This document shows positions 22,188 to 58,500 of a stretch of DNA of 64,000 nucleotides, one piece after another. The stretch lies in the NCBI GenBank assembly GCA_036925085.1, contig JAUPFP010000004.1:9398938-9462937 (forward strand), read 5' to 3'. The notes under the pieces were generated by a model that saw nothing but the letters and a program-made list of their open reading frames with translations, was not told the origin of the DNA and did no database searches. The first letter of the stretch is position 1. Every line of letters begins with the position of its first letter. The stretch comes from Brachycybe producta (Eukaryota > Arthropoda > Diplopoda > Playtdesmida > Andrognathidae). The translations under genes and the position numbers were made by a program.

Positions 22188-22517
22188 CTAGTGGGGTAAC
22201 CCGTCATAAATGACGGGAGCAAAATTCACAGGCAATTGTGCGCATGCGCATTGTTTGTTCCTTTTTTACTCTTTTCAGTTCAATTTGAGTCACCCCTCCT
22301 ACTTTTTTCCTCCCTTCACGTTTCTCTCTCCCCCCTTCTACACTTTCTAAGCTTTTTCCCTTTCCAATTTAATATCATGGGGTTCTTGGATGGGAAGGGT
22401 GCAACATATAGTTGAAAAAAAAGCTGTTCATTTCTTCATTTATTTAAATTTCTATAAATTCCGACAGTGTTAGTCCACACACACACACATACTGCACATA
22501 CATACACAGACCTGGGA
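22188..22517 (-). mobile_element. Helitron-like non-autonomous element H1
   Basis: Read on the minus strand it starts TCCCAGGTCTGTG and ends with the hairpin CCCGTCATTTATGACGGG, then TTACCCCACTAG, then T outside. That is the Helitron 3' layout (stem-loop about 11 nt before CTRR, inserted before T). It holds a decayed helicase motif VI (QLYVAP...SKNP) at about 22385-22425 and a pyrimidine-rich tract. Confidence 0.8.
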
Positions 22518-22531
22518 TATTATATATATAA

Positions 22532-52500: not shown

Positions 52501-55500
52501 TTAATATAATGGGGTTCTTGGATGGGAAGAGCGCAACATATAGTTGGCCTTGAGAAAAAAAGCGGTTCATTTATTCATTTAAGTTTATATAAATTCCAAC
52601 GTGCTTCAAGGTGTTTGTCTTTGTTTGTACAGCGTTACTGATGAAACGAAGGATAGACGGGGCTTAATATATATATAATTACTGTTATAAATATATACTG
52701 TACGTGAGCATTTACTTCATAATGCAAAAGTCCTGTTTCGTAGGTAATTTAAGGGTGTGTGTCTTGGTGCCGGGCTATAGTAAAACGTGTCACAAAAATT
52801 TCTTTTGAGGAATGTTTTGTGCCTTCATTTGGCTTGTTGCTTCTAGGTTGAAAACAACTTTTTAAGAAAGTCTTGAATAAGTTTTAAGAGGCTACATCGC
52901 AAAATTACTTCGAAAAATCTCCGCAAAGAGCGCTAGCATCGTTTTTCTATGGAGCCCATAGACCCAATGTTAAAGAAAAAACGTTAATTTTTAAAATCCA
53001 CAGTCGCGGCGGCAATATGTTTATTTTTCATATTTAAAGTTGTCCAATTTTGATGGTTGAAAGTGCAATGTGCACCTTAAATATATGCCGATCGAGTGAT
53101 AAAATGACAAAAAATTGGTAAGTGCGCTTCTATTCCATTGAGTACGCGCGCTCGTAAGCAAAACACATCCATTAAAATGTTGATAAAAATACCTAAAAAT
53201 AATTTTAAAAAACCACGGTGAAGCCAACAGTCCCAACACATTGGCACATGCGCTGACTTTTTTTCTGGTTTTTTAAAAATTATTTTAAGGTATTATTACG
53301 AACATTTTAATGAATGTTTTTTTGCTTATGATAGCGTAGGCCTACTCAATGGAGTTTAACATAAGAGTTAGAAATTCGCGATTTTGAAATACTTTTTAAA
53401 AATAGAAGCACACTTACCAATTTTTTTTGATAATCTATCACTAGATGCACATACATTTAAGGAGCACATTGCAATTTGAACCATCAAAATTGGACAACTT
53501 TCAATATGAAAATTAAACATATTGCCGTCGCGACTGTGTATTTTAAAAATGAACGTTTTTTCTTTAACATCGAAAAAACGATGCTAGCGCTCTTTGTGGA
53601 GATTTTTCAAAGTAATTTTGCGATATACCCTCTTAAAAATGACAATAAAAAATTGAAATAATGTATTTTAGAAACTACAACAGTATCAGGCTGGATCATG
53701 GTAGATTTGTTTTTATTTAATGTCTTTTCAAAATATTGTCAAGACTTACCCAATGATTGCTAAAACGATTTTTAAAATTAAAAAAAAAAACATTTTAATG
53801 ATATTTTTAATTTTAATTTTAATTCTAAAATACTTTCAATTTCTTTTTAATGTTGCTTTTGAAATGCAAAGTAACCTTACTTCGAAAATCATCCAAAACT
53901 GGCTGTGTAGAGCTTTCTCGATGTCTTCCGAAATCATAACTTAACAAAAGCTGGCAAACAAAGACAAAGCTCGTAAAAGCAGCCGCAGCAGCAGCAATAC
54001 TGACATTATGAGCTCAGCTTGTTACGAGAGTAACTTCAGTTGAGATTTGAGAATGTCATAAGCCACAACTGGGAATTTACTAAATGTGTGCAACTTGTTA
54101 AAATATGGCATATTAAATTTAATGACTACTTTCATCTGAGTCATTAACTCTCTTCTTTTGTTGTAGCTAGAAGAATATGGGTTCTTTCCAAAAAAAAAAA
54201 AGAGTTGGCCACCATTAAATTCATTACATTGTTTACGATGCGAGCGCGGCAGCATTCATAATTGGCACTCGGAGAGGGAAGAAGGCCACTTTCACACGAG
54301 GATACGTGTGTGGCGATACGTGTGCGGCGATACGTGTATGATAGATATTGAATTTACATGTACACAAATAGAAGCGTTCATACGGCGATACTCGTGGGAT
54401 ACGGTATCGCGATACTGATTTTGAGTATCCCGTCAACCTCGGCCGCCGGCGAATTTTTGTAAAGCTCAATTGACAAACAAAAAGACCGACATCCCAGATG
54501 TGGATACTGTGTGTCACACGAGTATATTCTATTTTTATTTCCGGATATACGCGTATCGCATACACGTATCTTGTGTGAATGAAGCCTCAAGCCGCGTAAC
54601 CACGATGCGTATCAATGGATACAGCTAGTGTAGCATCATTCCGTATCAAAATATGATACAAAGAAACGCAACGAACTGTGATCGGTCATTTGTCTTTTTT
54701 TCCCAGTCACATCAAAGAAATGATACGATACGCGGTGGATTAAGTTGTGACGGGCAGCACGCTCGGTCACTCCGTTGCACAATATTTGTTCATTCGCGTT
54801 TGGGAACTCGACGTGCCATGAAACGGGGACGTCTGCCATCACGTATTGTGCATTTTGAAACGCAATGCATTGATGATACGAGAAACATCGAGTAGCGTGT
54901 ACAGTGTACACCGTATCCGTATCAGCGAATGATACGGGTACAATACACAACGGTGATACGACACGCTTTTTTTTTTCTCAAGGACAACTATATGTTGAAC
55001 TCTTCCTTTGGAAAGTGTATAAGGGGGGGGAGAGAGAGAAAAGTGGGAGGGGGTGACTGAAATTGAAATGAAAGGAGTAAAAAAAGGAAAAACCGACGCG
55101 CATGCGCGCAATTGCCTGTGAATTTTGCTCCCGTCATTTATGACGGGTTACCCCACTAGTATTTTTGTATTATATTATTATATATATAATATCCCAGGTC
55201 TGTGTATGTATGTGTGTGTGTGTGTGGAGTAACTGTACAAAACCGTTGAAGCACGTCGGAATTTATATAAATTTAAATAAATGAAGAAATGAACAGCTTT
55301 TTTTTCTCAAGGTCAACTATATGTTGCACCCTTCCCATCCAAGAACCCCATGATATTAAATTGGAGAGGGGAAAAGGTTGGAAAGTGTAGAATGGGGGAG
55401 AGAGAGAGAAACGTAGAGGGTTGGAAAAAAGTGGGAGGGGTGGCTGAAATTGAAATGAAAGCAGTAAAAAAAGGAACAAATGACGCGCATGCACACGCCT

Positions 55501-58500
55501 GTGAATTTTGCTCCCGTCATTTATGACGGGTTACCCCACTAGTATATATATATTAAGCCAGGTCTGTCCTTTTCATGTCAGTAACGTTTTAACCCTTGAA
55601 CCACGTTGGAATTTATATAAATTTAAATGAATAAATGAACCGTTTTTTTTCTCAAGGTTAACTATATGTTGCACTCTCCCCATTCAAGAACCCCATGATA
55701 TTAAATTGGAGAGGGGAAAAGGTTGGAAAGTGTAGAAGGGAGAGGGAGAGAGAGGAGGTGGGAGTGGGTGATGGAAATTGAAATGAAAGGAGTAAAAAAA
55801 AGGAAAAAACGACGCGCATGCGCACACCAGAGAAAATGAAAAACTCATTTTCTCTTTCAAATATAAAAAGGGGAGGGCAAAAGTAGCAAAATTAAACTAG
55901 AATTTTTTTGCTCCGCCCTTTTATGAATTGGGTTGTTGGGTTTGTTACTTGGTATGACGGCATAAAAGGGCGGAGGAAAAGAAATTCTAATGCTGGGCAC
56001 AATTGCCTGTGAATTTTGCTCCCGTCATTTATGACGGGCTACCCCACTGTCGGTCTGTGTATTGTTATACACAGACAGACAGTGGGGTAGCCCGTCATAA
56101 ATGACGGGAGCAAAACAAGGACAAAAACGTTTAAGCACATCGGAATTTATTTCAATTTAAATGAACCGATTTTTTTTCTCATTGGTCATAGTTAAATAGT
56201 TTTAGTAGCCAAATTAGACTAGAATTTTGCTCCCGTTATTTATGACGGGTTACCCCCCCCCACTAGTCACATAATAACTCAGAAATGACGACATTAAGTA
56301 GTTACCTTCTATTTTCTAAAGTTTCTGAGTTTTTTCTCTTGGCGATTGCAAGTGTGTCCAGCTGTGATGTCGATTTACTGTGTTTGACATGGTTTGATAT
56401 CGAGTTTTTGGCAGTTGTCGAAACATCGAGGCAAAATTCGGCAGCATGGTCCAAACGACGATCTAAACTAGGATCTTTGTACGGCTTTGGTTGGGATATG
56501 ATTGGTGGAATGGGGGAACTGTGGGAATAAAAACAAGAGGAAAGAAAACAATGATGTTATTAAAAACCTAAGAATAATACAGTGTGTTCAAGAAAAATGA
56601 AAAAAATCACTTTCTAGTGCTATTTTGTAAGTTACTAGGTGACCTACACTTTAGAAATGTAGGTCACTCAGTGACCTACACTAGGACTAATCACAGGTTG
56701 CTCAGTGACCTACACTTGAGACAAGAACTGTGGGTTGTCTGAATGGTTATCTAAGTGTAGGTCATTGAGTGACCTACATTTCTAATTTCTAAAATGTAGG
56801 TCACCTAGTGACCTACGATTAGTCTTTCCCTTATTTTGTCAAACAAAACTGCTTTGAACTTTGTTCTACTAGATCAATAGATGTAGTCATTTTCAAATGC
56901 ACTACAGTATAAGTGGATATATATATATATATACTCTTTCTAAGTCATTAAGGTGGCTGACTAGATATTTATTTTGTTTTTGGCCTTCGTCCCAGATGGC
57001 GCCACTGCAGTGGCTTATAAGTAATATGTTAATTATGCCCTGTTGTGCGCGCACCATACTCTTAATAATGAAATTATTGCAAGCGCCGTATTGTAGCAGC
57101 AATAATTTAATTATTAGAGTATTGTGTGCACAACATGGCATAATTAACATGGCCGAATAAGAGATTAAAAGTCGAAATGACGAGATTTAAAAAAAAATCT
57201 CGCCTGTCCTTTACAGGGCTCCGTACTGTTTGAGCCCATAGACCCGATGTTAAAGAAAAAACGTTCATTTATAAAATACACAGTCGCGGCGGCAGTATGT
57301 TTATTTTTCATATTTAAAGTTGTCCAATTTTGATGGTTAAAAGTGCAATGTGCACCTTAAATATATGCTGATCTAGTGATAGAATGACGAAAAATTGGAA
57401 AGTGTGCTTCTATTTTTTTAAAAAAAAAAACTATTCTATCACTCGATCAGCATATATTTAAAGTGCACATTGCACTTTGAACCATCAAAGTTGGACAACT
57501 TTAAATATGAAAAATAAACATACTGCCGCCGCGACTGTGGTGTATTTTAAAAAATTAATGTTTTTTCTTTAACATTATGTCTATGGGCTCAATAGAAAAA
57601 CGATGTTAGCGCTCTTTGCGGAGATTTTACGAATTAATTTTGCGATGTGTACCCTCTTAAAACAAACAGTCTCTTGAGAACTTTTGTTATTAGCCTATAT
57701 CTAGCAATTAAAACGAAACATGCTGAACTTTTCGGTCAACCCTTCTGTTGTCGTAAGTTTTAACTTGCTGTACAAATAATTACGCGCACCAAACAAGGAA
57801 AAAAACAAGATACGCCTTTAGAAATGTATGTCCTTCCACCAATAATTAATTTCCATACAACTTAAATATTGCACTGAAACAATTATTTGTTTTTCCTAAC
57901 TGACTATTGTGAGAGCTACTCCATACCGTGAGCCCGAGTGGCCCCCCTCATGCAAGGATTAATAACAGGCAAGTAAGCGCAGTAAAATACAGTCGTTTGC
58001 CCCGCCACTTTTATGAAGAATGGCAACTTCTAATTGGTTTGTTATGTGGTCTGACGTCACATACCCCGTTGTTTTCAATTTTTTATTGGTTGTTATTTGG
58101 TATGACGCTCATAAATGGGTGGAGCAACCGACTGTATTTTACTGCGCTTACTTGCCTGTCAATACTATAATATATATATATATATATATATATATATATA
58201 TATATGTATATATATATATATATATGTATATATATATATATATGTATATGTATATATATGTATATATATATATATATATACATATATATATATATATATA
58301 TATATATATATATATATATATATATATATATATATATATATATACATATATATATATATATACATATAAACCCTGAACCAAACACAGGCAAGTGTGGCCA
58401 GCACTAGCTTTTCGTTTGCTCCACCCTTTTATGAGCCTCATCAATTTCTAATTGGTTTGTTATTTCAACTTATTTGGTCTGATGTCACATGCCCCGCCCA

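Follow-up and report, generated by a model that had tools for sequence, protein, structure and literature searches.

The window analysed here is a stretch of 64,000 nucleotides from the diplopod Brachycybe producta (GenBank assembly GCA_036925085.1, contig JAUPFP010000004.1, positions 9,398,938 to 9,462,937 of the forward strand). The short repeated elements described below are Helitrons, mostly non-autonomous, and are referred to as family 2. The family is very abundant, and its 3' end is shared with rare, broken parents that keep remains of the copying enzymes, a Rep protein and a Pif1 helicase (RepHel). Behind the 5' end, most copies carry a piece of the tail of this helicase which, on sequence comparison, is an inherited 5'-terminal module, present also at the front of a parental locus, L042. 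Taking the evidence as a whole, we consider it highly probable that the window copies are mostly non-autonomous family-2 Helitrons whose front module came from the Pif1 helicase tail.

Ends, copies and insertion site of family 2

The 20-base 3' end ATGACGGGTTACCCCACTAG was matched 12 times in the window at three mismatches or fewer and not once in 100 shuffles. A thirteenth 3' end, at 56242-56266, carries an inserted run of C and reads CACTAG followed by T. This agrees with the count of about thirteen copies made in an earlier reading of the window from its letters alone (hereafter the sequence-only reading). Patterns were searched in the genome (295 Mb, 442 contigs) as exact matches only, and the resulting counts are therefore lower bounds. 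ATGACGGGTTACCCCACTAG was found 4,290 times (2,191 and 2,099 on the two strands), with no match for the reversed-pattern control; the shuffles and the reversed-pattern controls of 0 rule out a chance origin of the matches. A T lay directly outside the exact 3' end in 4,233 of the 4,290 copies (another base in only 57), and outside all 20 intact CTAG ends among 25 ends taken from the window and from loci L001-L008 and L028-L043, as the sequence-only reading had proposed. The terminal CTAG that it assigned to the copies is present in most of them, and is altered in the window to CTAT (46851 and 52136) or CTGT (56050 and 56079).

A typical copy consists of the 5' end TTATATATA...CCAGGTCTGTG, the Pif1 helicase-tail module, a variable filler, the hairpin CCCGTCAT/ATGACGGG and the 3' terminus TTACCCCACTAG, the hairpin stopping 12 bases short of the terminus. 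This arrangement corresponds to the CTRR 3' end of Helitron1 elements, preceded by a short hairpin and followed by an outside T. The median pairwise identity was 81.7% over 54 pairs among 15 elements, counting as pairs only best matches that span more than 80% of the shorter element. The copies and related features of the window are as follows.

22188..22531, minus strand: non-autonomous Helitron of 344 bp with 5' end TTATATATATAATATCCCAGG and a 3' hairpin and CTAG then T, abutting the next copy head to tail.
22532..22870, minus strand: non-autonomous Helitron of 339 bp, its CTAG directly joined to the 5' end of copy 22188..22531.
25403..25554, plus strand: 5' end of the older type, its longer helicase-tail piece reading LYVALSR; 81.6% identical over 152 bp to the L042 helicase tail; no family 3' end was seen downstream up to 25800.
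34089..34664, plus strand: non-autonomous Helitron of 576 bp with a shortened 5' AT tract.
37364..37587, plus strand: short Helitron of about 224 bp with both ends and without the YVALS piece, inside an AT-rich repeat; 5' boundary uncertain by some bases.
39064..39457, plus strand: non-autonomous Helitron of 394 bp.
39458..39827, plus strand: non-autonomous Helitron of 370 bp, abutting 39064..39457 at CTAG/TTATTATATATATAATATCCCAGG, or separated from it by 3 bases if its 5' end is TTATATATATAATATC.
46851..47436, minus strand: non-autonomous Helitron of 586 bp, 3' CTAG changed to CTAT.
52136..52678, minus strand: non-autonomous Helitron of 543 bp, 3' CTAG changed to CTAT.
54966..55159, plus strand: Helitron with an intact 3' end and the YVALS piece; the region 5' of the piece differs from the other copies and the start is approximate.
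55178..55542, plus strand: non-autonomous Helitron of 365 bp, 5' flank A.
55543..56050, plus strand: non-autonomous Helitron of 508 bp, abutting 55178..55542, 3' end changed to CACTGT.
56014..56115, no strand: inverted duplication of a 3' end, with 38-bp perfect arms (56014-56051 and 56078-56115) and a 26-bp spacer.
56116..56266, plus strand: remnant whose helicase piece is of the older type (CACATCGG at 56136) and whose 3' end contains an extra run of C, then CACTAG and T.

The minus-strand 3' end at 56079-56098 is due to the inverted duplication at 56014..56115. This inverted repeat, built from the Helitron 3' end, resembles a fold-back copying event.

The 5' end is mainly of one of two forms, TTATATATATAATATCCCAGGTCTGTG or TTATATATATATTAAGCCAGGTCTGTG. 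A pattern covering the core of both gave 2,874 matches in the genome and none for the reversed control. The insertion site was determined on a copy at locus L002, where the filled site reads CTGAAAA / TTATATATATATATTAAGCC...CTAG / TATTGAGTTAATAC and paralogous empty sites read CTGAAAATATTGAGTTAATAC in L035 and ATGAAAATATTGCGTTAATAC in L008. Comparison of the filled site with the two empty sites indicates an insertion in which nothing was duplicated or lost; taking CTAG as its 3' end, the element lies in an A|T target and begins with TT. The A|T site, which the sequence-only reading had suggested examining at empty sites, was thus borne out. Terminal inverted repeats or target duplications, named there as evidence that would speak against Helitrons and typical of transposons such as miniature inverted-repeat transposable elements (MITEs), were looked for and not found: the two ends are dissimilar and no duplication is visible at the empty sites. 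Uninserted paralogues of window copy 37364-37587 were found at 47.9 kb and 14.6 kb of the window, again without target duplication, the left boundary of this copy being open by some bases because of AT-richness. The AT-rich repeat that serves as Helitron target and as source of uninserted paralogues lies at 14496-14903 (minus strand), 37071-37700 and 47647-48018 (plus strand), 27568-27699 and 32537-32698.

Genome-wide, the 5' tract TTATATATATAATATCCCAGGTCTG of the first form was preceded by A in 1,037 of 1,273 cases and by C, G or T in 236. Counting by eye in the 100 listed of these 236 gave 60 G, 38 T and 2 C, G being the base expected after CTAG in a tandem. A|T insertion without target duplication is that of Helitron1. 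The 5' TC of Helitron1 was not found, the L002 empty site giving TTATATATA, with which isolated window copies agree; nor was the TT insertion of Helentron/DINE-1 elements, since the empty sites show A|T. The left end of family 2 is TT and not the textbook TC. In the literature, the Helitron left end is given as TC (PMC6544945) and its dinucleotide is described as absolutely conserved (PMC5876387).

RepHel parents and the helicase-derived module

A profile search with the Rep family PF14214 returned 19 stretches of the genome, and 16 loci of 10 kb were read from them. Family-2 parents were sought with a helicase query of 227 amino acids, which yielded 1,573 candidates; among the 150 scored, the four strongest matches were L042, L056, L057 and L043, each broken or cut short. 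L042 and L043 belong to family 2: broken pieces of Rep and helicase homology run along both, and both have Rep-domain matches. The L042 helicase ends with ...VFSHGQLYVVLSRSKNPNNIKVLIQNGSCQGKLLHDNQTFTQNVIYNEVFE (protein ...YNEVFE), followed by the hairpin and by CCCGTCATTTATGACGGGTTATCCCAGTAG then T, with the terminus GTAG. L043 has a similar helicase end, one change in the hairpin and CCCCACTAG then T, with the terminus CTAG. The helicase-only locus L056 keeps a 3' end with changes in hairpin and tail, CACTAG then T, and L057 has a family-2 helicase that is cut short. Domain matches included Pif1_2B in L042 (1.2e-19) and PIF1 in L056 (1.6e-41). L042, which also has the 5' end of the family, is damaged by an inverted stretch and a 3.2-kb insertion. 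Broken as they are, L042 and L043 appear to represent the autonomous member, with HUH Rep, Pif1 and common ends, that is expected of a Helitron1 family. The sequence-only reading had named a likely parent with the same 3' end, taking the lack of any such RepHel as a point against it; L042, L043 and L056 provide this end with few base changes, all of them broken.

Five of the 16 Rep loci (L028, L029, L031, L034 and L036) form a younger group of elements in the same genome, family 1. In L028, ORF1 (the first open reading frame) matches Helitron_like_N (2.4e-60) and, with E=0, the Helraiser structure PDB 7lcc, and ORF2 matches PIF1 (9.4e-27). Over long stretches, L029, L034 and L036 share 94-97% identity with L028; L031 is mostly N and was assigned by protein match. 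Family-1 similarity starts at A then TCTAATATC in L028, L029 and L034, an apparent TC start, and the 3' end, seen with variants of the hairpin in L028, L034 and L036, reads ...GACGGGCTTTCTTTCTAG then T. Families 1 and 2 share homologous Rep and Pif1, the hairpin core CCCGTC/GACGGG and CTAG then T. Family 1 differs from family 2 by its 5' TCTAATATC, its 3' tail TTTCTTTCTAG and its number of exact 3' ends, only 64 genome-wide. Family 1 is disfavoured as the parent of the window copies, both ends being unlike. L035 (1147-6597) is a mosaic RepHel with a switch near base 4303: stretches before it, up to base 4301, are 83-93% identical to L042, and the part from 4305 to a family-1 3' end is 92% identical to L028. 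L030, L032 and L038 represent further RepHel families, and one of their helicases reads HGQLYVACTRLG.

The helicase piece of the copies, searched as TCTCAAGGTCAACTATATGT, gave nine window matches at up to three mismatches (0.01 expected by chance), and a partly deleted tenth lies in 22188-22531. The proposal that all copies carry it was too strong, since 37364-37587 has both ends without the YVALS piece; it is correct for most copies. The in-frame reading as the end of a Pif1/Rep helicase stands, the frame being present and the helicase correctly named. The piece starts upstream of the YVALS motif, CACATCGGAATTTATATAAATTTAAATGAACCG...TCTCAAGGTCAACTATATG being equivalent to parental KHVGIFLNEPVFSHGQLYV. 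Of 17 listed 5' ends, 16 have the TCGGAATTTATA part of the piece 22 to 71 bases behind their CCAGG; in the seventeenth this part was not found. In L042, the 5' end and a helicase piece precede the Rep region, and the true helicase tail follows about 8 kb later, the 3.2-kb insertion included. Between the two L042 pieces, identity is 81% along 108 bp and 84% along another 31 bp. The front of L035 carries a helicase piece too.

We compared 47 pieces. After exclusion of one false match (L042_5149m) and separation of four pieces of family 1 and two of a third family, 2 gene tails, 11 tails of the L044 type (see below) and 27 others remained. Removal of the gene-like L043_3628m, L055_405p and window_25464p from the latter gave 24 modern modules, among them those of L042 and L035. 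The insertion AATAAATGAA is present in 21 of the 24. The gene-type T of CTTTATG occurs in none of the 20 modules readable at the CTATATG site (unreadable in 4 of the 24), and gene-type CGA in none of the 10 with a readable arginine codon (unreadable in 14). The older pieces in window 25464, L055 and L043_3628 are still gene-like, and the arginine of ...LYVALSR is intact in the piece from 25464, as had been noticed for the fragment at 25467-25530. Since the copies have the insertion and the codon changes in common, the helicase piece was inherited and did not decay separately in each of them. Independent decay in every copy is ruled out by the same common changes. What had been described as a decaying piece of helicase is indeed helicase-derived, but its changes are mostly shared, as expected for an inherited 5'-terminal module.

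Tandem junctions and origin of the module

Neighbouring copies are frequently arranged head to tail. The pattern TTACCCCACTAGT-N(4-34)-CCAGGTCTGTG gave 347 genome matches and none in the control, and exact abutment, CTAG/TTATATATATAATATCCC, was seen in at least 34 of 100 head-to-tail junctions among the matches listed (counted by eye). Tail-to-tail junctions numbered 15 genome-wide with both strands counted, the two patterns being unequal in stringency. The window holds four pairs of head-to-tail neighbours: 22531/22532 and 55542/55543 abut, 39457/39458 abut or lie 3 bases apart, and 55159/55178 are 18 bases apart. A helicase-tail search gave 1,392 candidates, of which 150 were scored and 12 read as L044-L055. 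Eleven of these (L044-L054) form a fused subclass in which the helicase tail is attached to the hairpin arm, sometimes degenerate, of a copy lying upstream; a second family 3' end follows the fusion in seven of the eleven (L045-L049, L051 and L052). The commonest fusion junction, CCCGTC-ATGA-ACCAG, sits on a 4-base match (ATGA), and its exact 28-mer has 7 genome copies. In L055, the helicase tail lies behind a 5' end. The fused elements look like products of tandem junctions.

In Helraiser, the hairpin serves as stop signal, and read-through takes downstream sequence along (PMC4778049). By analogy, the copies would have been moved by a family-2 Rep-Pif1 protein through rolling-circle transposition that stops at the hairpin. 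A tandem composite may then have brought the helicase tail to the 5' end, a route to which we give about an even chance. An internally deleted element, made of a 5' end and the helicase tail, would have been followed downstream by a RepHel copy; transposition starting at the 5' end of the deleted element and reading through as far as the 3' end of the RepHel would have produced a RepHel headed by the tail, from which the non-autonomous copies would have arisen by internal deletion before spreading. Plain internal deletion and later end exchange are close rivals of this route. It is also possible, if doubtful, that the left end was rebuilt from the element's own helicase tail, that a RepHel took the left end of a deleted derivative and seeded thousands of copies, and that Rep accepted TT for TC. 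Tandem arrays, which let a copy borrow the 5' end of its neighbour, would have permitted this swap.

The piece might instead be the remnant of a plain internal deletion that arose a single time in a non-autonomous ancestor, the parent itself undergoing no duplication. Its collinearity with the helicase tail and the closeness to the gene of the older versions (L055 and window 25464) fit this view. However, L042 and L035 hold a front piece plus helicase behind it, and their modules have the same derived insertion as the non-autonomous copies, which makes such a remnant somewhat unlikely. L042 could also consist of an old non-autonomous copy beside an unrelated RepHel that lacks its own 5' end, in which case the parent never had the module. 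Head-to-tail neighbours are common, as the 347 junctions attest, and L042 is broken, with its inverted stretch and 3.2-kb insertion. Against this, the module of L035 is followed by the internal repeats and Rep region seen in L042, with 83-91% identity between the two loci over about 1147-2686, and no family 3' end was found between module and Rep region in either locus. We consider two separate elements unlikely, the arrangement being shared by two loci, although a composite that moved as a unit, as in the tandem-composite route, could still apply.

That the copies were mobilised by the younger family-1 RepHel, with its TC...CTAG ends, family 2 being only a relic, seems improbable. The 94-97% identity of family 1 over long stretches suggests recent activity, and the hairpin core and the CTAG then T are common to both families; yet 64 exact family-1 3' ends stand against 4,290, the 5' ends differ (TCTAATATC versus TTATATATA) and the helicase tail in the copies is of family-2 type. 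Finally, it is extremely improbable that the copies are MITE-like or Helentron/DINE elements: they are short and AT-rich, with a microsatellite near the 5' end as in DINE-1 (PMC4067079), but they have a CTAG terminus, a hairpin 12 bases before the end, an A|T target without duplication and RepHel parents with Rep homology and PIF1, whereas DINE-1 and Helentrons favour TT (PMC4067079, PMC5148889).

Several points weigh against the interpretation of the copies as family-2 Helitrons with a helicase-derived front, or against parts of it. No intact family-2 parent was found among the 150 scored of the 1,573 helicase candidates; mobilisation by a family-2 RepHel is consequently something we infer, and family 1 might have helped to mobilise the copies. 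L043, L056 and L057 show no visible parental 5' end, so that the 5' module of family-2 RepHel elements rests on L042 and the mosaic L035, which begins with a run of TA at its very 5' end. The module may have appeared first in a non-autonomous copy or first in a RepHel. As to the TT left end, it rests on a single copy with two clean empty sites and on the genome-wide flank counts; the L002 boundary is ambiguous by one base (T on both sides), and, by extrapolation from the sample listed, T instead of A precedes about 8% of those 5' tracts that have no G before them.

Other sequence in the window and relation to known Helitrons

Reverse-transcriptase open reading frames (PF00078) were found at 168-1844 and 22552-24831 (plus strand). 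The start of the second lies inside an antisense Helitron copy and that part is therefore probably not real protein. Arrays of a GGGACATTTGCCCTAAA-like unit occupy 29161-29417, 38401-38608, 49161-49438 and 49512-49878, and occur also in L005, L008, L032 and L043. An abundant repeat of about 300 bases is present in both orientations at 9420-9664, 35886-36613, 41567-42350, 44805-45082, 46213-46788, 52888-53632, 57230-57646 and 62059-62663. Further tandem arrays lie at 7187-7570, 3289-3467, 17229-17815 and 42918-43294, with units of 30, 21, 195 and 197 bases, respectively.

Family 2 resembles the Helitron1-type elements Helibat1/Helraiser of bats, and their non-autonomous HelibatN derivatives, in its RepHel parents, its hairpin before CTAG-3' and its A|T insertion without target duplication; the RepHel protein of this genome that matches Helraiser is the family-1 ORF1. 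It differs from Helibat1/Helraiser in having a 5' TT instead of TC and in that the tail of the helicase gene forms the front of the element, in parent and derivatives alike. Abutting Helitrons and new 3' ends are on record in bats (PMC4778049). Tandem or head-to-tail Helitrons are likewise already known (PMC5876387, PMC5148889, PMC4067079), with arrays in plants and bats (PMC5876387) and in bat and silkworm (PMC4067079); unlike these arrays, those described here comprise 347 junctions of a strict pattern and fusions at ATGA microhomology. The small size, great abundance and microsatellites of the family recall DINE-1, Helentrons and Helitron2 (PMC4067079), but DINE-1 and Helentrons insert at TT, whereas family 2 keeps CTAG and A|T.

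To the sequence-only reading this analysis adds the location of the helicase piece, one parent copy that holds it twice and the TT left end. A search of the open-access literature gave no report of a helicase-derived 5' module. If borne out by more empty sites, the TT left end would be relevant to how stringently Rep recognises that terminus, and to detection tools that seek TC. The junctions of the fused subclass point to possible steps from tandem copies to new elements. Non-autonomous Helitrons are often hard to assign to a parent; in this family three features tie the non-autonomous copies to theirs, namely the shared 3' end, the 5' module and the helicase tail. A new 5' end made from the coding sequence of the same element, and kept by the parent and its derivatives, is a route that we did not meet in the open-access literature consulted.

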